Below are positions 7,737 to 59,115 of a stretch of DNA of 64,000 nucleotides, piece after piece. The stretch is from Phaeacidiphilus oryzae TH49. GTDB taxonomy: Bacteria; Actinomycetota; Actinomycetes; Streptomycetales; Streptomycetaceae. The notes beneath the pieces were generated by a model. That model was not told the DNA's origin and ran no database searches. It saw only the letters and a program-made list of their open reading frames with translations. Each line of letters starts with the position of its first letter. Within the stretch, counting starts at the first letter, position 1. The stretch lies in assembly GCF_000744815.1 (NCBI RefSeq), contig NZ_JQMQ01000005.1:4979801-5043800 (forward strand), written 5' to 3'. Made by a program: the position numbers and the translations under genes.

Positions 7737-9026
7737 GTGGCACGCATCGGTGACGGCGGCGACCTGCTCAAATGCTCGTTCTGCGGCAAGAGCCAGAAGC
7801 AGGTGAAGAAGCTCATTGCCGGTCCAGGTGTGTACATCTGCGACGAGTGCATCGACCTCTGCAACGAGATCATCGAGGAGGAGCTCGCCGAGTCCTCCGA
7901 GGTGCGGTTCGAGGAGCTGCCCAAGCCCCGGGAGATCTACGAGTTCCTGGACGGCTACGTGGTCGGCCAGGAGGCCGCCAAGAAGGCCCTCTCGGTGGCC
8001 GTCTACAACCACTACAAGCGGGTGCAGGCGGGCGAGAACGGCCGGCAGCCCGCGGGCGGCCGGGACGAGGGCATCGAGCTCGCCAAGTCCAACATCCTGC
8101 TGCTCGGCCCGACCGGCTCCGGCAAGACCCTCCTGGCGCAGACCCTGGCCCGGATGCTGAACGTGCCGTTCGCCATCGCCGACGCCACGGCCCTCACCGA
8201 GGCCGGCTATGTGGGCGAGGACGTCGAGAACATCCTCCTCAAGCTGATCCAGGCGGCCGACTACGACGTCAAGAAGGCCGAGACCGGGATCATCTACATC
8301 GATGAGATCGACAAGGTCGCCCGCAAGAGCGAGAACCCGTCGATCACCCGCGACGTCTCCGGCGAGGGCGTCCAGCAGGCCCTGCTGAAGATCCTGGAGG
8401 GGACGACGGCCTCGGTCCCGCCGCAGGGCGGCCGCAAGCACCCCCACCAGGAGTTCATCCAGATCGACACGACGAACGTGCTGTTCATCGTGGGCGGGGC
8501 GTTCGCCGGCCTGGAGCGGATCATCGAGGGCCGGGCCGGAAAGAAGGGCATCGGCTTCGGGGCGAACATCCGCTCGAAGCACGAGATCGACTCCAGCGAC
8601 CTCTTCCGCGACGTCATGCCGGAGGACCTGGTCAAGTTCGGGATGATCCCGGAGTTCATCGGCCGCCTCCCGGTGATCACCGCGGTCCACAACCTGGACC
8701 GCGAGGCCCTGCTGCAGATCCTCACCGAGCCGAAGAACGCGCTGGTCAAGCAGTACCGCCGGCTGTTCGAGCTGGACGGCGTGGAGCTGGAGTTCAGCCG
8801 CGGCGCCCTGGAGGCCATCGCCGACCAGGCGATCCGGCGCACCACCGGCGCCCGCGGCCTGCGGGCGATCATGGAGGAGGTCCTCCAGTCGGTGATGTAC
8901 GAGGTGCCCTCGCGGAAGGACGTCGCCCGGGTGGTCGTCACCGAGGACGTGGTCCTGGAGCACGTCAACCCGACCCTCGTCCCGCGCGACATCATCAAGC
9001 GCGAGCGCCGCGAGAAGAGCGCGTAG
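7737..9026 (+). CDS. clpX: ATP-dependent Clp protease ATPase subunit ClpX
   Basis: AAA+ unfoldase that recognises tagged proteins and threads them into ClpP. 429 residues, the usual length. The N-terminal zinc domain has Cys13, Cys16, Cys35 and Cys38; Walker A GPTGSGKT at 124-131; Walker [10 protein letters not shown] around 185-193; the ClpP-docking IGF-type loop is seen as GIGFGAN. GTG 7737 gives the family N-terminus [19 protein letters not shown] and has GAAGGGG upstream; the in-frame extension to 7551 is not family-like. It lies apart from clpP2 by 299 bp and likely has its own promoter, not identified. Confidence 0.97.
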
Positions 9027-9059
9027 CGCGTAGCGGGCGGCCTGTCCTCCCGGCGCGGC

Positions 9060-9875
9060 TCAGCCGGCGTCGGGGACCTCGTCCTCGGCCCGGATCCTGC
9101 GGGCCAGGGCGGCCAGCTCGGACGGGGTGGTGTAGTCCGGCCGGCCGTAGGCGAAGAGCGAGAACTGAGAGGTCTCGCTCGCCCAGTAGCAGTACACCGT
9201 CTGGACATAGCCGTCGTTCGTCGACCCGCAGGCCATCGCACCGCCGTGCGACCCCGGGTTCACCGCGGTGGCCTGCGCGAACACGCTGGTCTTGCTGTCC
9301 TGCGCAACGATCCGCAGCACGGTGCGGAGGGTCTGGGCGGGGTCGCCGGCGGGCATCCCGTTGTACCCGTAGAGCTCGAAGCCGTTGGTGACGGGGTCGC
9401 CGTAGACCCGGCCCGCCCAGTCGGAGGCGGCCTCACCGGCACCGGCACCCACGGAGTCCGGGGCACCCCGCAGCCCCTCCAGGGACGCCGGGGGGTGGAG
9501 CCGGTAGGCGCCGGGCTCCGGCGTGCGGAACGGATCGTGCGCCGACCGGGCGCCCGGGGCGGCCATCAGCGCCACCGCCGCCACCGAGGCCAGCGCCGCG
9601 CCGAACGCGATCAGCATCGGCAACCATGCTCGCCGCCGGGGGCCGGGCAGGGGCCCGTACGGCGGGGGCGGCGGCTCGGGGCCGAACGGCGGCGGGGCGA
9701 AGTCCTGGCCCGGCGGCTGGGGGTAGGGCGCCGAGTACCGCGAGGCGTACGGCGAGCCCGGTGCCGGCGGCACCGGCGGCGGCGGGTACGCGTACGGCGG
9801 TCCCGAGGGGAACCACTCGCCGTCGGACGGCCGGTCGTCTGCCGGCTCCGCGAAGCCGCTGGGTTCCTGGGACAT
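9060..9875 (-). CDS. single-pass membrane protein with proline-rich cytoplasmic tail
   Basis: Unrecognised 271-residue protein. Residues 1-80 are rich in Pro, Tyr and Gly (likely disordered and cytoplasmic), a basic PRRRA stop precedes one membrane helix at about 84-107, and the remaining 160 residues would be outside the cell. The external domain has two cysteines close together (MACGS and VYCYW), possibly a disulfide. The next gene upstream, at 9968-10963, has the same architecture and a similar leader, so the two may be diverged duplicates. The gene converges on clpX 33 bp away. Function unknown. Confidence 0.75.
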
Positions 9876-20785: not shown

Positions 20786-21823
20786 ATGGCGAACAACATG
20801 TCGTTCATCGGTCGTGACATGGCTGTCGACCTCGGCACCGCCAACACGCTGGTGTACGTCAGGGGTCGCGGGATCGTGCTGAACGAGCCGTCGGTGGTGG
20901 CGGTGAACACCACCACCGGCGGAATCCTCGCCGTGGGCGCCGAGGCGAAGAAGATGATCGGCCGCACCCCCGGCAACATCATCGCGATCCGGCCCCTGAA
21001 GGACGGCGTCATCGCCGACTTCGAGATCACCGAGCGGATGCTCAGGTACTTCATCCTGAAGATCCACAAGCGCCGCTACCTGGCCCGCCCGCGGGTCGTG
21101 GTCTGCGTCCCGTCCGGGATCACCGGAGTCGAGCGCCGCGCCGTCATCGAGGCGTCCTCCCAGGCGGGGGCGCGCCAGGTGCACATCATCGAGGAGCCGA
21201 TGGCGGCCGCGATCGGCTCCGCCCTCCCGGTCCACGAGGCCACCGGCAACATGGTGGTGGACATCGGCGGCGGCACCACCGAGGTCGCGGTGATCTCGCT
21301 GGGCGGCATCGTCACCGCGCAGTCCATCCGGGTCGCCGGCGACGAGCTGGACAACGCGATCATCCAGCACATCAAGAAGGAGTACTCGCTGCTGCTCGGC
21401 GAGCGGACGGCCGAGACGATCAAGATGACCATCGGCTCCGCGGCCGCCCTCGACGGCGAGCAGGAGCAGCACAGCGAGATCCGCGGCCGGGACCTGGTCA
21501 GCGGCCTTCCCAAGACCGTGGTGATCTCCGCGGCCGAGGTCCGGGAGGCCATCGAGGAGCCGGTCGCCAGCATCATCGACGCCGTCAAGACCACCCTCGA
21601 CCAGTGCCCGCCGGAACTGGCGGGTGACATCATGGACCGCGGCATCGTTCTCACGGGGGGCGGGGCTCTGCTCAGCGGTCTCGACGAGCGGCTCCGGCGC
21701 GAGACCGGCATGCCGGTGCACATCGCGGAGGACCCGCTGGACTCGGTCGCCCTCGGTGCCGGCAAGTGCGTCGAGGAGTTCGAGGCGCTCCAGCAGGTGC
21801 TGGACGCCCAGCCCCGTCGCTGA
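20786..21823 (+). CDS. mreB: rod-shape/spore-wall actin homologue MreB
   Basis: Bacterial actin that forms membrane-associated filaments and organises peptidoglycan synthesis; in Streptomyces it acts mainly in spore-wall assembly. 345 residues with the actin ATPase motifs: phosphate 1 [10 protein letters not shown] (about 15-24), phosphate 2 [18 protein letters not shown] and the adenosine motif [11 protein letters not shown]. The N-terminal [12 protein letters not shown] may form the amphipathic membrane anchor. ATG 20786; an internal ATG five codons on is a minor alternative. It is first gene of the mreBCD-mrdA-rodA cluster. Confidence 0.98.
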
Positions 21824-21897
21824 CGCGAGGTCAGAAGACGGGCGGCAGCAAGGAACCGCAGCACTTCCGCACCACGAGAAGGGCCCAGCCGAGCGCC

Positions 21898-22922
21898 GTG
21901 AGGGACACACGAGAGAGCAGGCTTCTGCTCGTCCTGCTGGTGGCCATCGCCTTCGCGTTGATCACCGTGGACATCAGGGGCGGTGACACGTCCCCGCTCA
22001 ACGGTGCCCGGGACGCCGCCGCCGGCGTCCTCGGCCCGGCGGAGAGAGCCGTGGCCGGGGCGGTCGACCCGGTCGGCAACACGATCCGGGCGATCCGGGA
22101 CTCGGGCGACCACAACGCCCGGCTGCAGGCCCTGGAGCGGCAGAACGCCGACCTCAAGCAGCGGCTGGCCTCCTCCGACCTGGCCCGGACCAGGAACTCG
22201 GAGGTGCAGCAGCTCCTCGGGGTGGCCGGCGCGGGCCAGTACACGATCAAGGCCGCGCAGGTGGTGGCGATCGGCGCGGCCCAGGGCTTCTCCTGGACGG
22301 TCACCCTCGACGTCGGCAGCGAGGACGGCATCCAGCGGGACGAGACGGTGATCAGCGGGCAGGGGCTGGTCGGCCGGGTGACCACGGTCGGCCCCAGCAC
22401 CTCCACGGTGCTGCTGGCCTCCGACCCGGAGTTCACCGTCGGCACCCGGCTGGAGGGCAGCAACGAGATCGGCTTCGCCACCGGCCAGGGCGACGGCCCG
22501 ATGAAGGTCGAACTCCTCAACGGCAACGCCAAGGTGAAGGTCGGTCAGCGACTGGTCACCTTCGGTTCGCAGGGCGACAAGCCGTTCGTGCCGGGCGTAC
22601 CGGTCGGCACGGTGGAGAAGGTGAACGACACGCCCGGCTCGCTCACCCGCACCGTCCTGGTGAAGCCCTTCGTCGACTTCACCGCCCTGGACCTGGTCGG
22701 CGTGGTGATCCAGCCGCCGCGCACCGACCCCCGGGACGCGGTGCTCCCGGCCAAGCCCGCCAAGCCGGCCCCGGCCGCCCCCGCGCCACGCCCAGCGGCT
22801 CGCCGGGCGCGACCCCGGGCGCGACCCCGAGCGGCGGCGCCACCCCCAGCTCCTCCGGCACCGGCACCACCACCGCCGGCGCGGTCGGCGGCGCGACCCC
22901 CACCGCCTCCCCGACGCACTAG
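21898..22922 (+). CDS. mreC: rod-shape protein MreC, apparent frameshift in tail
   Basis: Membrane-anchored scaffold linking MreB to the wall synthases. GTG 21898 begins MRDTRESRLLLVLL; a single membrane helix (about 7-27), a coiled coil (ALERQNADLKQRLASSDLAR) and the two-beta-barrel domain follow, ending near VGVVIQPP. The original frame then turns into an Arg/Pro-rich stretch and stays open past mreD to 23775, which is not plausible. In the -1 frame from about 22785 the DNA reads a Gly/Thr/Pro/Ser tail (TPSGSPGATPGATPSGGA) and stops at TAG 22920-22922, giving about 340 residues, a normal size. I therefore end the gene there and mark a frameshift; whether it is a sequencing error is not known. 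Confidence 0.88.
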
Positions 22923-22981
22923 CCGACGCCGCAGCCCGCCCACGCCCCCGGCCCCGCGCCCGAAGAGAGGAAGTCAGGCTC

Positions 22982-23734
22982 ATGCGGATCAACCGCATCC
23001 TGCTCGCCGCCGTCCTGGTCGTGGTGGCCCTGGTCATCCAGGTGAGCGTGCTGGCCAGACTCCAGCTCCCCGGCGCCGTGCCGGACCTGATGCTGCTGGT
23101 GGTGCTGGCCCTCGCGCTGGTCTGGGGCCCCACCGGGGGCTGCGTCACCGGCTTCTGCGCCGGCCTCCTCGCCGACCTCGCGCCGCCCTCCGACCACGCC
23201 GTCGGCCGCTACGCCCTGGTGCTGTGCCTCCTCGGCTACGCCGCCGGGCTGCTCAAGCCGCCCGGCGGGCAGATCCGCTCGGTCCTCACCCCGCTCGCCC
23301 TGGTCGCGGTCGCCGCCTTCACCGCCACCCTCCTCTACGCCGGCGTCGGCGCCCTGGTCGGCGACACCGCCGCCCGGCACGTCGGCCTCGGCGGGCTGAT
23401 CGGCACGGCCGTCCTCTACGACGTGATCCTCGCCCCGTTCGTGGTGCCCGGGGTGATGGCGCTGGCCCGCAGGGTGGAGACGGACCCGGTGGCCCAGGCC
23501 GCCGACTCCGGGGCCGGCGGCCCCTCCGGCCGCTCCGGCGGCCTGGCCGGGCGGCTGTTCGGCGCGGCCTCCTTCCGCCGCCGCGAGCGGGCGATGTTCG
23601 GCGGCGAGGGCACCCGCACCGGCGGGATCGCGGGCCTCGGCACGGTGCCCGGCTTCGGCAAGGGCCGCTCCGGCGCCTCCGGCAAGCGCGCCGGCACCAG
23701 CAGCAGCATGGTTCGACCCGGCAAGCGTCTCTGA
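22982..23734 (+). CDS. mreD: rod-shape protein MreD
   Basis: Polytopic partner of MreC in the elongation/spore-wall machinery. 250 residues: five hydrophobic helices in the first ~165 residues starting MRINRILLAAVLVVVAL, with the family's small size and acidic FCAGLLADLAPP loop, then a Gly/Ser/Arg-rich cytoplasmic tail of about 85 residues that typical MreD proteins lack or have short. ATG 22982 follows GAGAGGAAG. It lies 60 bp past the corrected mreC stop and 48 bp before mrdA, so one operon. Confidence 0.93.
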   Translation: MRINRILLAAVLVVVALVIQVSVLARLQLPGAVPDLMLLVVLALALVWGPTGGCVTGFCAGLLADLAPPSDHAVGRYALVLCLLGYAAGLLKPPGGQIRSVLTPLALVAVAAFTATLLYAGVGALVGDTAARHVGLGGLIGTAVLYDVILAPFVVPGVMALARRVETDPVAQAADSGAGGPSGRSGGLAGRLFGAASFRRRERAMFGGEGTRTGGIAGLGTVPGFGKGRSGASGKRAGTSSSMVRPGKRL

Positions 23735-23781
23735 CCGCCGGCCGCGCAGACCGTCCATTCCTCGGGAGGCAGTGAGAACCC

Positions 23782-26034
23782 GTGAGCAACATCCCGGAGA
23801 CCGGCCGCACCAAGCGGGTGACCCTCCGTCTGGTCGTCCTTCAGGTGGTCGTGCTGTCCCTCCTCGCCACCCTCGGCGGACGGCTCTGGTACCTGCAGAT
23901 CCGCAACGGGGCCCAGTACCAGCAGCAGGCGGCGTCCAACCAGATCCGCCAGGTGACCGTGCCCGCCGTGCGCGGACAGATCCTGGACGCCAACGGCGTG
24001 GCGCTGGCCGACAACCAGACCAAGCTGGTGGTCTCGGTCAGCCGCACCTCGCTGCTCACCGCCAAGGACGGCGGCAAGGCGGTCCTGGACCGGCTCGCCC
24101 AGGTGCTCGGCATGAAGGCGCAGGACGTGGAGAACAAGGTCCGGCTCTGCGACGCCAACACCCCGCAGCCCTGCTGGAACGGTTCCCCGTACGAGCCGAT
24201 CCCGGTCACCGACAAGGCGACCACCCAGCAGGCCATGCAGATCATGGAGCGCAGGGAGGACTTCCCCGGCGTCACCGCCGAGCCGACCGCGGTCCGCGCC
24301 TATCCCGGCCCGTCCGGCGCCAACGCGGCCCAGATCCTCGGCTACCTCTCCCCGGTGACCCAGGACCAGGTCCAGGCGACCGCGAACAAGACCGGCAAGG
24401 CCAAGCTGGCCGCGACCGACTCGATCGGCCAGGCCGGCCTGGAGTCCGTCTACGACTCCGACCTGCGCGGCACCACCGGGACCAACAACCTCGAGGTGGA
24501 CAACCTCGGCCGGGTCATCGGCGACGCCGGCGGCACCGCCGCCCAGCCCGGGAGCGACCTCGTCACCTCGATAGACGCCCGGGTCCAGGCGGTCACCGAG
24601 AAGCAGCTCAACCAGGCGATGCAGACCCTCCGGAAGACCTACGACCCCGTCACCCACGAGAACTTCAAGGCCGACTCCGGGACCGCGGTGGTGATGGACG
24701 TCCACACCGGCCGGATCGTCGCCATGGCCAGCGAGCCCACCTACGACCCCAACATCTGGACCGGCGGCATCTCCGCCAAGGACTACGCCAAGCTGACCAG
24801 CTCCTCCTCCGACTACCCGCTGCTGAACCGGGCCATCCAGGCGCAGGCGGCGCCCGGCTCGACCTTCAAGGTCATCTCGACCACGGGCGCGATGGAGGCC
24901 GGCTACACGGAGAGCGACACCTTTCCGTGCACCTCGTCGATGAACATCGGCGGGCAGGTCTTCAAGAACTTCGAGGGCGAGAACTTCGGCCAGATCACCC
25001 TCTCCAAGGCCCTCGAGGTCTCCTGCGACACGGTCTTCTACAACATCGCCTACCAGCAGTGGAAGAAGGACGGCGGCCTGTACGGCAAGAACGCCAAGGA
25101 CTGGCTCTTCAAGGCCGCCCACCAGTTCGGCCTGGGTCAGCCCACCGGCATCGACCTGCCGTCCGAGGTCAAGGGCCGGGTGCCGGACCGCAAGTGGCAC
25201 CAGGACTACTGGGACGCGATGAAGGACACCTGGTGCAAGCAGGCGTCCGCGAAGAACAACGACTACCTCACCCAGATCGCCCGCCAGGACTGCTCCGACT
25301 TCAAGTACGTCCGGGCCGGTGACGAGGTCAACTATGCGATCGGCCAGGGCGACACCCTGGTGACGCCGATCCAGATGGCCCGGATCTACTCCGCCCTCGC
25401 CAACGGCGGCACCCTCTACCAGCCGTCCCTGGCCAAGGCCGTGGTCTCGCCCACCGGCAAGGTGGTCAAGAACATCGCCCCGGTCGCCCAGGGCAGGCTG
25501 CCGGACAGCAGGCAGCAGCTGCAGTACATCGACAACGCCCTGGCGGGCGTGGTCACCAGCGGCACCGCGGCCTGGAAGTTCGGCGGCTGGCCGCAGAACA
25601 AGATCCCGCTGCACGCCAAGACGGGTACCGCGGAGGTCTACGGCAAGCAGACCACGTCCTGGTTCGACACCTACACCAAGGACTACGCCGTCGTCATGAT
25701 GATCAGTCAGGGCGGCACCGGCTCCGGCGGCTCGGGCCCGGCCGTCCGCAACATCTACAACGCCCTCTACGGCGTCCAGTCCGACGGCTCGATCGACCCC
25801 AAGAAGGCCCTGCTGCCGACCCCGCAGAAGCAGCTGCCGACCTTCCACCCGGACGGCTCGGTGACCGCCGCCCAGCAGGCCGCCTTCAACCGGTCGGTCA
25901 GCGCCCACGCCCAGTACCTCAACACGACGGCCCCGGCCGGCGCGCCCGGCACCGTCCCGGCCGCCGTCTGGGCGCTGCCGCCGGACCGCCGCGGCGCCGG
26001 CTCCGTACCGACCGGCAGCGCGGCCGTGTACTGA
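23782..26034 (+). CDS. mrdA: penicillin-binding protein 2, class B transpeptidase
   Basis: Cross-links peptidoglycan outside the membrane, paired with the RodA glycosyltransferase. 750 residues: cytoplasmic basic stretch, signal anchor (about 16-35), dimerisation/pedestal domain, then the transpeptidase with Ser360 in STFK, SCD at 414-416 and KTG at 613-615. All three penicillin-binding motifs are present. A Cys-rich loop (RLCD...PCWN, KQAS...QDCSD) could hold disulfides. The C-terminus has about 60 extra Pro/Ala residues. Start GTG 23782, GGGAGG upstream. mrdA is the standard companion of mreBCD and rodA. Confidence 0.96.
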   Translation: MSNIPETGRTKRVTLRLVVLQVVVLSLLATLGGRLWYLQIRNGAQYQQQAASNQIRQVTVPAVRGQILDANGVALADNQTKLVVSVSRTSLLTAKDGGKAVLDRLAQVLGMKAQDVENKVRLCDANTPQPCWNGSPYEPIPVTDKATTQQAMQIMERREDFPGVTAEPTAVRAYPGPSGANAAQILGYLSPVTQDQVQATANKTGKAKLAATDSIGQAGLESVYDSDLRGTTGTNNLEVDNLGRVIGDAGGTAAQPGSDLVTSIDARVQAVTEKQLNQAMQTLRKTYDPVTHENFKADSGTAVVMDVHTGRIVAMASEPTYDPNIWTGGISAKDYAKLTSSSSDYPLLNRAIQAQAAPGSTFKVISTTGAMEAGYTESDTFPCTSSMNIGGQVFKNFEGENFGQITLSKALEVSCDTVFYNIAYQQWKKDGGLYGKNAKDWLFKAAHQFGLGQPTGIDLPSEVKGRVPDRKWHQDYWDAMKDTWCKQASAKNNDYLTQIARQDCSDFKYVRAGDEVNYAIGQGDTLVTPIQMARIYSALANGGTLYQPSLAKAVVSPTGKVVKNIAPVAQGRLPDSRQQLQYIDNALAGVVTSGTAAWKFGGWPQNKIPLHAKTGTAEVYGKQTTSWFDTYTKDYAVVMMISQGGTGSGGSGPAVRNIYNALYGVQSDGSIDPKKALLPTPQKQLPTFHPDGSVTAAQQAAFNRSVSAHAQYLNTTAPAGAPGTVPAAVWALPPDRRGAGSVPTGSAAVY

Positions 26035-26135
26035 CCCGGCCGCGTCCCCGCGGGGCGCCCGCGTCCGGCACCTCCGAGCGGCGCCCTCCGGCCCGGCACC
26101 TCCGACCAGCACCTCCGACCAGAAAGCCAACTGCC

Positions 26136-27344
26136 ATGACCGGCACCGGACTGACGACCAGTTACCGGGACCCGCGGTTCGCGCCGCAGCGCGGAGCGGT
26201 CGGCCGGCTGCTCGCCCGCGGCTCGGTGCTCTACCGGCTGGACTGGGTGCTCTTCGCCGCCTGCACCGCGCTCTCCCTGATCGGCTCGGTGCTGGTCTGG
26301 TCGGCCACCCGCGACCGCACCGCGATCAACCACGGCGACAGCAGCTACTTCCTGGTCCGCCACGTCATCAACATGGTGATCGGGATGGGCCTGTGCGCGG
26401 TGATCATCGGCGTCGGGGCGCGCCGGCTGCGCACGGCCGTCCCGTTCATCTACGCCTTCGCCGTGCTCGGCGTCCTCGCCGTCCTCAGCCCGCTCGGCTC
26501 GACCGTCAACGGCGCCCACTCGTGGATCGTCCTCGGCGGCGGCTTCTCCATCCAGCCCTCCGAGTTCGTCAAGATCGCGATCACCCTGGGGATGGCGACC
26601 CTCCTCTCCGCCCGGGTGGACGCGGGGGAGCGGCAGTTCCCCGACGACCGCGCCGTCCTCCACTCGCTGATCCTCGCCGCCATCCCGATGGGCGTCATCC
26701 TGCTGATGCCCGACCTCGGCTCGACCATGGTGATGGTGGTCCTGGTGCTCGGCGTCCTCGGCGTCTCCGGCGCCCCCAAGAAGTGGCTGGCCGGACTGGT
26801 CGCGGTGGGGGCGATCGGCGCCTTCGCCGTCGTCCAGCTGCACATCCTGAAGCAGTACCAGATCGCCCGCTTCGCGGCCTTCGCCAACCCGAGCCTCGAC
26901 CCCTCCGGCGTCGGCTACAACACCGCCCAGGCGCGGATCGCCATCGGCTCCGGCGGGCTGCTCGGCAAGGGCCTCTTCCACGGCTCGCAGACCACCGGCC
27001 AGTTCGTCCCCGAGCAGCAGACCGACTTCGTCTTCACGGTGGCGGGGGAGGAGCTGGGCTTCGTCGGCGCCGGCGTGATCATCCTGATCCTGGGCGTGGT
27101 CCTGTGGCGGGCCTGCCGCATCGCCCGGCAGGCCGGCGACCTCTACGGCACCCTGGTCGCGGCCGGCGTCGCCTCCTGGTTCGCCTTCCAGGGCTTCGAG
27201 AACATCGGCATGACCCTCGGCATCATGCCGGTGGCCGGCATCCCCCTGCCCTTCGTCAGCTACGGCGGCTCCTCGATGTTCGCGGTCTGGGTGGGCGTGG
27301 GCCTCCTCCAGTCGGTCCGCGTCCTCCGCCCGGTCTCGGCGTAG
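26136..27344 (+). CDS. rodA: SEDS peptidoglycan glycosyltransferase RodA
   Basis: Polymerises lipid II into glycan strands together with the upstream PBP2. 402 residues with about ten membrane helices and the SEDS signatures HSWIVLGGGFSIQPSEF, LMPDLGSTMV, the FVPEQQTDFVFTVAGEELGF segment and PFVSYGGSSMF. ATG 26136; the 101-bp gap after mrdA holds short GCACCTCCGACC repeats and no promoter. In Streptomyces this gene is often called sfr. It completes the mre cluster. Confidence 0.96.
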   Translation: MTGTGLTTSYRDPRFAPQRGAVGRLLARGSVLYRLDWVLFAACTALSLIGSVLVWSATRDRTAINHGDSSYFLVRHVINMVIGMGLCAVIIGVGARRLRTAVPFIYAFAVLGVLAVLSPLGSTVNGAHSWIVLGGGFSIQPSEFVKIAITLGMATLLSARVDAGERQFPDDRAVLHSLILAAIPMGVILLMPDLGSTMVMVVLVLGVLGVSGAPKKWLAGLVAVGAIGAFAVVQLHILKQYQIARFAAFANPSLDPSGVGYNTAQARIAIGSGGLLGKGLFHGSQTTGQFVPEQQTDFVFTVAGEELGFVGAGVIILILGVVLWRACRIARQAGDLYGTLVAAGVASWFAFQGFENIGMTLGIMPVAGIPLPFVSYGGSSMFAVWVGVGLLQSVRVLRPVSA

Positions 27345-52710: not shown

Positions 52711-53373
52711 ATGCCGAAGGACGCGGGAGGCCTGCCGTACCCGGAGGGCTGGGATCACGGAGACGACGGCGACGACTACGCCGCCGTGGTCTTCGACGAG
52801 TCCTTCGTACGCGGTGCCCAGGTGCACGAGCCCACCGCCGAGGAGCGGATACTCGCCGCTGTCGAGGCCAGGCTGGAGCGGGAGACCCGGGAGAACACCG
52901 CCGGCCCCGGCCGCCGCGGAACCCCGGCGGAGCCGAACGACGAGGCCGACGCCGGTGAGGCCGGCGACCTCGACGACATCGACGAGGCCGATCCGGACGA
53001 CCCGGACGGACGAACCGGCTCCGGCGGCCTGCCGCTGGAACTCCGCCCGCTCGGCGGCGGCGCCCGCTACCGGGTCGGCCACTGGTACGGCGGCGGCCCC
53101 GGCGGCTACCAGCAGAACTGGGCCGGCTACGGCGGGCAGTCCCGCTGGCAGCGCGGGGTGGCCTGGGTGCTGGCGCTGGTGATGGGCGTCGGTGTGGTGC
53201 TGCTGGCGGCGGCCGCCGTGTACCGCGGGGTCAACAGCGGCGGGACGCATCCGATGATCCCCGTGCCGAGCAGTTCACCGGAGAGCAGCCACGGCGCCGC
53301 CTCCACGGACAGTGGCATCCGGTCCGGCGCCACCCGCCCGTCCTCCCCGGCGCCCTCGGTGAGCTCGGGCTGA
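52711..53373 (+). CDS. single-pass membrane protein, FDESF family, likely SCO2584 counterpart
   Basis: 220 residues: acidic cytoplasmic part with the motif VVFDESFVRGAQVHEPTAEER (residues 27 on), a Gly/Tyr-rich stretch, one membrane helix (about 149-171) and a short Ser/Pro-rich external tail. By position directly after proA it corresponds to what I recall as SCO2584, a protein reported to interact with the Streptomyces spore-wall synthesizing complex built around MreB; that identification is from memory and synteny, not from alignment. The next gene repeats the FDESF motif. Start ATG at the predicted +1. Confidence 0.8.
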   Translation: MPKDAGGLPYPEGWDHGDDGDDYAAVVFDESFVRGAQVHEPTAEERILAAVEARLERETRENTAGPGRRGTPAEPNDEADAGEAGDLDDIDEADPDDPDGRTGSGGLPLELRPLGGGARYRVGHWYGGGPGGYQQNWAGYGGQSRWQRGVAWVLALVMGVGVVLLAAAAVYRGVNSGGTHPMIPVPSSSPESSHGAASTDSGIRSGATRPSSPAPSVSSG

Positions 53374-53546
53374 ACGCCCGTCACCGGCTCTGCGTTCGCC
53401 GGTGCTTCATCTGACGCTTCGTCGCCGGCCTTTTATCGCTGGAGAATTGTCGGCTCCGTCCGGAATCGTTCCCGGTTCTGTCCGGATTCCTACCCGCCGC
53501 TGGGATTCGGACCCCGAGGGGGGTCGTTCGAGGGTGCGCGGAGAAT

Positions 53547-53552
53547 TACTCT
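53547..53552 (+). promoter_or_regulatory. leaderless -10 of the second FDESF gene
   Basis: TACTCT lies so that the predicted +1 is the A of the ATG at 53559. The 185-bp gap before it contains two GTCCGGAAT-like repeats (about 53458 and 53480) and an AT-rich TTTTATCG segment. Confidence 0.5.
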
Positions 53553-53558
53553 TGAGTC

Positions 53559-54800
53559 ATGGGTGGCCGGGGAGGGCCCCCGGATGGCCTGCCCGAAGGC
53601 ACTCCCGGGGGTGACGACGAGTTTCGCTCCGTCGTGTTCGACGAGTCCTTCATCCGGGCTGCCCGCATCCAGGAACTCTCCGCGCAGGAGCGGCTCTCCG
53701 CGGCCGCGCGCCCGATCGAGGACCGGCGGAGCGAGCGCACCGGCGTGCTGCCCCGGCAGGCGCTGGCGCTGATGCTGCTGATCGCCATGGCCTTCGCCGC
53801 AGCGGTGTACATGGGCGTCCGGCATCCGTACCGGGAGACCGTCAACGGCGGGATCGAACTGAGCATGTCGGTCATCCCGCTGCAGGCCGGCCCGGGCGGG
53901 GTGCCCACCGGCAGGGCGCTTCCGGCGGGCAAGGGGGCGTCGGCCACGGCCTCGCCGAAGGCCACCGCCTCCGCCTCGTCCTCCGCCGCCGCCTCGGCCT
54001 CGTCCTCCTCCGCGTCGGCGCAGGCCTCTCCGCCCACCGGCTCGGCCTCCAGCGGTAACCACTCCTCCACCTCGGCCGACCCCAGCCCGTCGGCCGACGA
54101 CCCGTTCGCCGGGACGGCCGTCGAGGGCTTTCCGATCGGCGAGGCCGGCATCTCGCTGCCCAGCCCGGCGGACACCAGCCACTTCTCCGCCGACCAGGTG
54201 CTGCGCGCCCTCACCGAGGTGCAGACCTACCTCCAGGACTCCTCCCTGGAGCCGACCGTGCTCAGCGGCACCGGGCCGAACGCGGGCACCGACGCCGTCC
54301 GCGAGCTGCTCGACCCCAACGAGGTCCAGCAGTTCGACAGCAGCCTGGCCAATCCGCGCAACGACCGCAGGCACGAGGTCACCGGCTGGATGGTGCGCTT
54401 CAACCCGAAGCAGGTGCTGCTGGCCAGCCCCGAGGTGCGGGTGACCGGCAGGGTGCACTTCTCCGAGGCGGGGGCCGACACCCTGCAGGTGACCAGCGAT
54501 CACACCTTCGTGTACGCCTTGCGGCAGGCGCGGACGACCGGGCCGACGGTGCTGTTCACCGTGCGGCGGGATCTGGTGTACCGCTTCTCCCACGACGATC
54601 TGGCGGCGTCCCGGATGGAGATCGCGGACTCCGTGACCCAGGCCGGGCCGATGGCCTGCGACGCGAACCCGTCCGCGTACCTCCAGCCGACGTTCCCGTC
54701 CAAGCGGCCGTCCCCGTCGCCGGGGACGAGCGTCGATCCCTTCGACCACAACGCCCCGGCCTGGCAAGTCTGCGGCACCCTCTCCCGCGCGACGCTCTAG
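53559..54800 (+). CDS. single-pass membrane protein, FDESF family, with external domain
   Basis: 413 residues: short cytoplasmic part with VVFDESFIRAARIQELSAQER, one membrane helix (about 67-87), a Ser/Ala/Thr-rich linker (about 125-185, likely glycosylatable or disordered) and a 220-residue external domain (FSADQVLRALTEVQTYLQ, HEVTGWMVRFNPKQVLLASPEVRVTG). The shared cytoplasmic motif suggests that this and the preceding protein bind the same intracellular partner. Two Cys in the external domain (MACDANP, QVCGTLS) may pair. Start ATG at the predicted +1. Function unproven. Confidence 0.78.
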   Translation: MGGRGGPPDGLPEGTPGGDDEFRSVVFDESFIRAARIQELSAQERLSAAARPIEDRRSERTGVLPRQALALMLLIAMAFAAAVYMGVRHPYRETVNGGIELSMSVIPLQAGPGGVPTGRALPAGKGASATASPKATASASSSAAASASSSSASAQASPPTGSASSGNHSSTSADPSPSADDPFAGTAVEGFPIGEAGISLPSPADTSHFSADQVLRALTEVQTYLQDSSLEPTVLSGTGPNAGTDAVRELLDPNEVQQFDSSLANPRNDRRHEVTGWMVRFNPKQVLLASPEVRVTGRVHFSEAGADTLQVTSDHTFVYALRQARTTGPTVLFTVRRDLVYRFSHDDLAASRMEIADSVTQAGPMACDANPSAYLQPTFPSKRPSPSPGTSVDPFDHNAPAWQVCGTLSRATL

Positions 54801-56597: not shown

Positions 56598-57218
56598 ATG
56601 GAAACGCACGCTGAGCCCGAGAACGGGCCGGTGAAGAAGCGCCTCGGTGTGATGGGCGGAACCTTCGACCCCATTCACCACGGCCACCTGGTCGCGGCCA
56701 GCGAGGTGGCGAGCGCCTTCCACCTCGACGAGGTCGTGTTCGTCCCGACCGGCCGGCCCTGGCAGAAGGACGGCCGCCAGGTCACCGCCGCCGAGGACCG
56801 CTATCTGATGACGGTCATCGCGACCGCCTCCAATCCCCGCTTCTCGGTGAGCCGCATCGACATCGACCGCGGCGGTCCGACCTACACCACGGACACCCTC
56901 CGCGAGCTCCGCAGCGAGCACCAGGACGCCGACCTCTTCTTCATCACGGGCGCCGACGCGCTGGGCCAGATCTTCTCCTGGCGGAACGCGGACGAGCTCT
57001 TCGACCTGGCACACTTCATCGGCGTCACCCGTCCAGGGCATACACTCGCGGACCCCGGCCTCCCCAAGGGCGGAGTGTCGCTGGTGGAGGTTCCCGCGAT
57101 GGCGATCTCCTCCACCGACTGCCGTGAGAGGGTGGCGCGCGGGGAGCCCGTCTGGTACCTGGTTCCGGACGGCGTGGTCCAGTACATCAGCAAACGCTCG
57201 CTGTACCAGGGCCGTTGA
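56598..57218 (+). CDS. nadD: nicotinate-nucleotide adenylyltransferase
   Basis: Adenylates nicotinate mononucleotide, the step before NadE. 206 residues: nucleotidyltransferase motif [15 protein letters not shown] (about 17-31) and the C-terminal ISSTDCRER signature. ATG 56598 near the predicted transcript start. The LCP gene follows after 58 bp, so they may share a transcript; this nadD-LCP-rsfS-pgm order is standard in actinobacteria. Confidence 0.96.
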
Positions 57219-57276
57219 GTCATACGTAGGCACGGGGGGTGCGCATCGCCGCGCAAGACACCGGAGGCATCAGCGC

Positions 57277-59115
57277 GTGACCGGCAGCACTGACCCGTAC
57301 GACGGGTACGGCGACACCGGCGACCAACCGCCGGTGGACCCCTATGCGCAGCCCCCGCAGGCCGACTACCCCTACGGCGGCTACCCGCAGCAGTACCAGG
57401 GCGGCTATCCGCCCGAGGGCGCGGGGCGCCCGTACCCTCCGGCGCCGGGCGCCGCCGACTACCCCTATGCGCAGGGCGGCTACCCGCCCGGGCAGCAGCC
57501 GCCGCCTGCGCAGCAGCAGCCCCAGCAACCCCCGCAGCAGCCCGGCGGCCCGTACCCGGGGCAGGTCCCGGGCCAGGGCCACGGCCAGGGCTGGCCGGGC
57601 GGGGCGCCGGCGGGGTACCAGGACGGCGGCTATCAGAACGGCGGCTACGACACCGGCGGATACCCGGTCGTGGACCCCTACGCCGGCTCCGGCGGCTACG
57701 GCGGGCCGGGCGCCCAGCAGCCCCCGTACCCCCAGCAGCCACCGGCCCAACAGGGGTACTCCACCGGGCAGTTCGCCATGCCGGGGCAGGCGCCGCAGGT
57801 CCCGCAGGGCGCGCAGGCGACCGGGGTCGGCCCCCCGCCGCCGCGGACGCCGGCCGAGGACCCCTCCGCGCCGCGGGGCAAGGCCAACTACGACACCGGC
57901 GAGTTCGCCTTCGTCGAGGACGAGGAGGAGTCCTCCGAGGACGTCATCGACTGGCTGAAGTTCACCGAGACCCGCGGCGAGCGCCGGGACGAGCGCCGCC
58001 GCTCGGTCCGCCGCCGCGGCATCGCCGTGCTGGTGCTGCTGGTGCTGGTGGTGGCCGGCGGTGCGGGATACCTGTTCGCCAGCGGGCGGATGAAGTTCGG
58101 CTCGTCCTCCGGCGGCGGCTCGCTGCCGGCCGCCCAGCGCCAGGTGATCTCCGTCTATCTGCGCAGCCTGAACGGGAAGACCTCGACCGCGCTGATGGTC
58201 GACGACCCCACCACCCACCGGGCCGGCGCGCTGCTGATCCCGGACACCCTGAAGGTGCCGCAGGACGGCGGCTCCCCGATGGCCCTCGGCGGCTCCTGGG
58301 ACCAGCAGTCCGCGAGCGGCACCCGGGACGGCCTCAACTCCGTCCTCGGCACCCACGTCACCGGCACCTGGCGGCTGGACGCCCCGTTCCTGGACACCCT
58401 GGTCGACGTCCTGGGCGGGATCACCGTGGACGCCGACACGGCGATCTCCCAGGGCGGCAAGCAGCTCGTCCACCAGGGCAGCCAGACCATGAACGGCGCC
58501 GCAGCCGAGGCGTACGCCACCTACCAGGCCAAGGGCGAGCCGGCCGGCGCCCAGCTCGCCCGGTTCGGCCAGGTGATGTCCGCGGTGGTGAAGGCGTTCC
58601 CGACGGACGCCATCTCCGCCTCCTCGGACGTCGGCCGGATGGGCGCGGTGCTCGACCCGTCGCTGCCGCAGAAGGACCTGGCGGCGGCGCTGGCCGCGAT
58701 GGCCACCGACACCGGGCGGAGCGGCTTCCGCACCGTGAGCCTGCCGGTGACCGCCGGCGGCGCGGTCGCCTCCGGCGGCGACGCCCTGGTGAAGTCGGTG
58801 ATCGGCGGCGCCGGGCAGCGGGCGACCGGCGGGACCCTGGCCCAGGTCGCGGTCCAGAACGGCTCCGGGAACAGCAGGAACACCGGCCTGGCGGACGCGG
58901 CCCTGCAGAACGCCGGCTTCAGCCTGGCCTCCGGGGACGCGACGACCGCCGCCGCCCGGGCCACCACCCAGGTGCTGTACTCCGACGCCGCTCGCCAGAC
59001 CGCGGCCCAGCAGGTCGCGCAGGCGCTGGGGCTGGGCACGGCGGCGGTGGCCAAGGGCACCGTCCCGGGCAACGCGGACGTGCTGGTGGTGCTGGGCAAG
59101 GACTACCAGGGCTAG
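57277..59115 (+). CDS. LytR-CpsA-Psr family protein with long cytoplasmic tail
   Basis: Probable transferase attaching glycopolymers to peptidoglycan. 612 residues: first ~205 are Tyr/Pro/Gly/Gln repeats (GGYPQQYQGGYPP type), then an acidic stretch with DVIDWLKF, a membrane helix at about 248-268, a shortened LCP-like domain (SVYLRSLNGKTSTALMV, LDTLVDVLGGITV) and a C-terminal LytR_C domain (LAQVAVQNGSGNSRNTGLAD). Start GTG 57277 with GGAGG 9 nt upstream. The conserved Arg pair of active LCP proteins is not obvious, so activity is uncertain. Confidence 0.85.
   Translation: MTGSTDPYDGYGDTGDQPPVDPYAQPPQADYPYGGYPQQYQGGYPPEGAGRPYPPAPGAADYPYAQGGYPPGQQPPPAQQQPQQPPQQPGGPYPGQVPGQGHGQGWPGGAPAGYQDGGYQNGGYDTGGYPVVDPYAGSGGYGGPGAQQPPYPQQPPAQQGYSTGQFAMPGQAPQVPQGAQATGVGPPPPRTPAEDPSAPRGKANYDTGEFAFVEDEEESSEDVIDWLKFTETRGERRDERRRSVRRRGIAVLVLLVLVVAGGAGYLFASGRMKFGSSSGGGSLPAAQRQVISVYLRSLNGKTSTALMVDDPTTHRAGALLIPDTLKVPQDGGSPMALGGSWDQQSASGTRDGLNSVLGTHVTGTWRLDAPFLDTLVDVLGGITVDADTAISQGGKQLVHQGSQTMNGAAAEAYATYQAKGEPAGAQLARFGQVMSAVVKAFPTDAISASSDVGRMGAVLDPSLPQKDLAAALAAMATDTGRSGFRTVSLPVTAGGAVASGGDALVKSVIGGAGQRATGGTLAQVAVQNGSGNSRNTGLADAALQNAGFSLASGDATTAAARATTQVLYSDAARQTAAQQVAQALGLGTAAVAKGTVPGNADVLVVLGKDYQG

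Follow-up and report, generated by a model that had tools for sequence, protein, structure and literature searches.

A cytoplasmic tag common to the neighboring SCO2584- and SCO2583-type membrane proteins of Phaeacidiphilus oryzae: a candidate docking peptide in the class Actinomycetes

Two neighboring membrane protein genes of Phaeacidiphilus oryzae TH49, here called P1 and P2, lie in the window, by which we mean the whole 64,000-nucleotide stretch of DNA that was analyzed. Both are open reading frames with an ATG start on the + strand. P1 (52711 to 53373) encodes 220 amino acids arranged as an N-terminal tag, an acidic linker, one membrane helix, and a short outer tail, and P2 (53559 to 54800) encodes 413 amino acids arranged as tag, membrane helix, Ser/Ala-rich linker, and outer domain. 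The pair is preceded by proA and followed on the other strand by an M48 peptidase gene, which adjoins P2. A preliminary description of this DNA had taken P1 for SCO2584 from its position after proA, and this assignment is borne out by the NCBIfam model NF052259 (SCO2584_fam), to which residues 1 to 202 of P1 align over profile positions 1 to 185 of 204 with 162.9 bits (E 1.5e-47; whole-protein equivalog cutoff at least 80 bits); the order of genes behind proA also agrees with that of this family. P2 is likewise assigned to the SCO2583 family (NF052260, described as “membrane protein”) with 367.9 bits (E 3.8e-110; equivalog cutoff at least 205 bits), from which it differs in its long Ser/Ala-rich linker. 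Plasmid-borne relatives of P2 and those from other genera have diverged further, with scores under the cutoff in the cases tested, yet they retain the outer domain and a tag. Pfam offered no credible domain in either protein: matches to VirB8, P67, and Med13 were weak, and Septum_form (PF13845) gave no match. NCBIfam describes the SCO2584 family as “spore wall biosynthesis protein”; the spore-wall role of P1 rests on this family name and on the preliminary description, since no paper naming SCO2584 or SCO2583 was found in the open-access literature searched.

The tag common to both proteins spans about 33 residues and has the form VVFDESF(V/I)R-x-A-x-(V/I)-x-E-x-(T/S)-A-x-E-R. It occupies residues 21 to 53 of P1 (52771 to 52869, + strand; DDYAAVVFDESFVRGAQVHEPTAEERILAAVEAR) and residues 20 to 51 of P2 (53616 to 53711, + strand; DEFRSVVFDESFIRAARIQELSAQERLSAA). 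The similarity is not due to chance, as an alignment of the N-terminal 70 residues of P1 and P2 scores 107, compared to 26.0 +/- 4.9 and a maximum of 63 for 5,000 shuffles. A profile-profile comparison of 12 P1 with 11 P2 orthologues aligned 35 columns of the tag (probability 97.7, E 2e-12), and found no alignment of the membrane helix and the outer part between the two families. The preliminary description was thus right that two adjacent membrane proteins share a motif and differ in their membrane and external parts. Its statement that both proteins begin with the motif holds in so far as the motif is N-terminal, but 20 to 25 residues of Gly/Pro/acidic low-complexity sequence come first in each. 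It had also made conservation of the motif among orthologues decisive for its proposal, and conserved the motif is: the mean majority fraction reaches 0.82 in the tag of P1 orthologues versus 0.51 in the rest of the protein, and 0.91 versus 0.55 in P2 orthologues. In P2, the tag holds the best conserved 20-residue window and is the best conserved part of the protein; in P1, it shares this rank with the membrane helix (0.85).

The membrane helix of P1 lies at about residues 150 to 171 (53158 to 53223, + strand), as judged from the alignment of the 12 orthologues and, more generally, from hydropathy and charge bias across the tagged proteins, and carries the strongly conserved pattern RWxRxVAWxLAxxMGxG...AxYRG. 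That of P2 lies at about residues 66 to 87 (53754 to 53819, + strand), where a single-sequence AlphaFold2 model of residues 1 to 96 places a helix (pLDDT of about 92 at residues 71 to 80); the same model renders the tag as a helix (pLDDT of about 90 at residues 31 to 40). The outer domain of P2 (residues 188 to 413; 54120 to 54797, + strand) features two invariant cysteines in an alignment of 25 relatives. Neither a PDB match by profile nor a credible Pfam match was found for it, and its single-sequence model was uninformative (pLDDT 34.5). The tag itself had no match in solved structures.

The motif is already catalogued, since the NCBIfam entry NF052257 (Sc_trio_core, “SCO2583/SCO2584 N-terminal domain”, 35 residues) covers the tag itself. 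This entry names a trio of SCO2583, SCO2584, and SGM_3592 and attaches no function to the domain. At a domain cutoff of at least 30 bits, it recognizes P1 (53.2 bits, E 2e-14), P2 (48.8 bits, E 4.7e-13), and a third copy in the same genome (59.1 bits), so that three tag loci are present. The third, about 2 Mb away, is a soluble protein of 94 residues that belongs to the SGM_3592 family (NF052258, 103.4 bits; whole-protein cutoff at least 70 bits); P1 (29 bits) and P2 (21.2 bits) score below that cutoff. This gene (locus L091, 8067 to 8348, + strand) and a Big_10/YkuD L,D-transpeptidase gene (8362 to 9672, - strand) are transcribed toward each other; the latter was not seen in the two other SGM_3592-type neighborhoods examined (L107 and L108). 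What the present analysis adds to the catalogue is the breadth of the tag, which extends past the three catalogued Streptomyces families, into a number of additional architectures and beyond the organism's own family.

A profile search with NF052257 found the tag in all 121 sampled genomes of the organism's own family, mostly in 2 to 5 copies, and in further families of the order and class. For a count at the class level, we used a broader profile (A1) built from 32 divergent tags, accepted matches with E below 1e-4 as confident, and took those at E 0.002 to 0.01 as chance. The tag was then present in 62 of 296 class genomes, distributed over the own family (28 genomes), family f20 (26), and six further families (8 together). 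Outside the class, a single weak match appeared in a sample of 396 phylum genomes, and a query of the SGM_3592 type gave no match in phages. The outer parts that follow the tag vary: an SCO2583-type domain, Septum_form (PF13845; E 2.9e-13 and 2.6e-47), which occurs in carriers of family f20, an M10-like metalloprotease (E 1.4e-5), a cysteine domain with the pattern CGxxGYHxF, or none. In the protease case, an actinomycete with a 2.4-Mb genome encodes a single-pass protein that combines the tag with an external zinc protease domain of the M10/matrixin-like kind (L089, 6765 to 7814). Side-by-side tagged genes are also seen in other genera (L096, 7067 to 8717), and the CGxxGYHxF protein recurs at different loci in other genera (L099, L100, L102, and L097). 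Across 19 neighborhoods, we found no conserved gene neighbor that would point to a partner. Linear plasmids of Streptomyces and Embleya carry relatives of P2 in which a diverged tag, SDEEWERFLRES...KEPSARAR, accompanies an outer domain of the SCO2583 type (L179, 9452 to 10702; L180, 9572 to 10678; L181, 9566 to 10666; L182, 9629 to 10705; L184, 7427 to 8675); where annotated, these proteins are called hypothetical. These plasmid paralogues suggest roles of the tag beyond the spore wall. Since the tag is far wider than the P1/P2 pair and occurs in small-genome lineages as well as in plasmid paralogues, a role restricted to the spore wall is doubtful.

Over all collected loci we counted 146 distinct tags, 103 of which precede one membrane helix. 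In 95 of these 103 proteins, Lys and Arg on the N-terminal side of the helix outnumber those on its C-terminal side, and in none is the balance reversed; this charge bias, together with the single membrane helix behind the tag, places the tag of P1 and P2 in the cytoplasm. Most of the other 43 tags end in a basic-aromatic tail such as GWFFSKARRRRWRRR, which may bind the membrane in these helix-less proteins. The tag is thus cytoplasmic and adjoins a membrane anchor or a likely one, at a distance that varies considerably, with linkers of 14 to 154 residues between tag and membrane helix. Its consensus reads D-x-F-x2-[LV]-V-[LF]-D-E-x-F-[VI]-R-x-A-x3-E-[PA]-[STP]-A-x2-R; E and R are invariant among the 32 divergent tags, D, F, and A nearly so, and the periodicity expected of a helical face is weak (p 0.12).

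That unrelated outer parts share one tag makes a common intracellular partner, as proposed in the preliminary description, plausible; MreB, PBP2, RodA, or a kinase would be putative candidates for it. Several features make a docking site the best explanation: the tag is more conserved than the rest of the protein, the outer parts are varied, the linkers range from 14 to 154 residues, and the tag sits at the inner face of the membrane. On these grounds, P1 and P2 probably share a docking tag that is read by the same partner. The tag would then be a short, mostly helical docking peptide, the helix being the presumed binding element, kept at the inner membrane face by a single membrane helix, or by the basic-aromatic tail in the case of the soluble third member. 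Each tagged protein would contribute an outer part of its own to the one cytoplasmic partner that reads the peptide, and in this way outer modules might be gathered at a single wall-building site.

Two other accounts dispense with docking. Plain ancestry would make P1 and P2 old tandem duplicates whose N terminus was kept only for folding or insertion, a view that accommodates the adjacency of the two genes and their common order of tag, linker, and helix. It leaves unexplained why neither the helix nor the outer part shows any alignment between the P1 and P2 families, why linker length varies so widely, and why the tag recurs in a soluble protein and, in other families, ahead of unrelated outer domains. 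The constraint on the tag calls for more than common descent, and we regard this account as very improbable. Somewhat less remote, if still improbable, is that the tag acts as a regulatory or processing signal of co-regulated membrane proteins, such as a kinase site, a degron, or a protease site, instead of a docking site. Ser or Thr is common in the E-P-[ST]-A element, PkaI phosphorylates spore-wall proteins (PMC4416010), and the gene adjoining P2 encodes an M48 protease. However, 8 of the 32 divergent tags have Pro or Ala in place of Ser/Thr, and phosphorylation does not fit the tag because of the changes to Pro; invariance is confined to E and R and nearly reached by D, F, and A, and a membrane anchor follows the tag in every case, which a degron would not require.

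If a docking partner is assumed, family name, genomic surroundings, and tag distribution make a component of the MreB-organized complex the leading candidate. The preliminary description had placed core genes of the spore-wall complex 30 kb upstream, and mreB (20786 to 21823; TIGR00904, 506.9 bits), mreC (21874 to 23010; NF010510, 439 bits), the PBP2 gene (23782 to 26034; TIGR03423, 585.4 bits), and rodA/sfr (26136 to 27344; TIGR02210, 347.1 bits), all on the + strand, indeed lie at 20786 to 27344, which is 25 to 32 kb upstream. The position of PdtA/SCO2578, 2.3 kb downstream of P2, is taken by a gene for an LCP glycopolymer transferase (57124 to 59115, + strand; PF13399 and PF03816), whose identity as PdtA is given by domain and gene order only. 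PdtA is a reported member of the spore wall synthesizing complex (SSSC) (PMC11481543), which in Streptomyces comprises MreBCD, RodZ, PBP2, Sfr, PdtA, SCO2097, and PkaI. With no more than three tag loci in this genome, the core members of the SSSC do not themselves carry the tag, and P1 and P2 would be candidate members of the complex.

MreB was found in 198 of the 296 class genomes and in 61 of the 62 confident tag carriers; the sole carrier without MreB is an assembly that is 84% complete. One further apparent exception, the complete genome G079 of the own family, was rejected as a carrier without MreB: its weak match turned out to be an mreB 90% identical to that of the window (L186, 18480 to 19507), split over two frames near codon 105 in the assembly; a genuine mutation or a mistake in assembling the sequence could account for the split. 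By genomes, the association of tag and MreB has a Fisher p of 1e-11, which becomes 1e-6 without the own family and about 0.10 without both large families (7 of 8 genomes). The last value is the honest figure, since genomes are not independent, and the association is largely that of two clades. MreB also occurs in 352 of the 396 phylum-sample genomes, where the tag is absent outside the class save for the one weak match. MreB is thus common without the tag and does not need it, and the tag would be at most an add-on. Distribution and gene context fit a partner in the MreB machinery, and we consider it possible, if tentatively so, that the partner belongs to the MreB complex.

The main rival, about as probable as a partner in the MreB complex, is that the tag docks to another actinomycete protein, e.g., a division or polar-growth scaffold of the FtsZ, SepF, or DivIVA type. 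In favor of such a scaffold, Septum_form outer domains follow the tag in one carrier family, carriers extend into small-genome lineages and have paralogues on plasmids, and MreB is widespread without the tag. This is countered by the presence of MreB in nearly all carriers and by the naming of the SCO2584 family after the spore wall; moreover, “Septum_form” is the name of a family, not a tested function. Taken as a whole, the best explanation is a membrane-anchored docking helix with a common cytoplasmic partner, the latter most likely to be sought in the MreB-organized wall-synthesis complex, the SSSC of Streptomyces, and we see this combined reading as evenly poised between right and wrong.

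It is tempting to speculate, as a rather doubtful extension, that the tag serves throughout the class Actinomycetes as a general docking code on the inner side of the membrane, by which one cytoplasmic scaffold protein, perhaps of the MreB complex, recruits changing outer wall modules (the P2 domain, Septum_form, the M10-like protease, and others), and that plasmid-borne tagged modules plug into the same scaffold. Should the tag be a docking peptide, it would provide a short, mutable handle on how actinomycete outer wall proteins are gathered at one inner scaffold, and could serve as bait to find that scaffold, thereby turning the unexplained catalogue entry NF052257 into a testable question.
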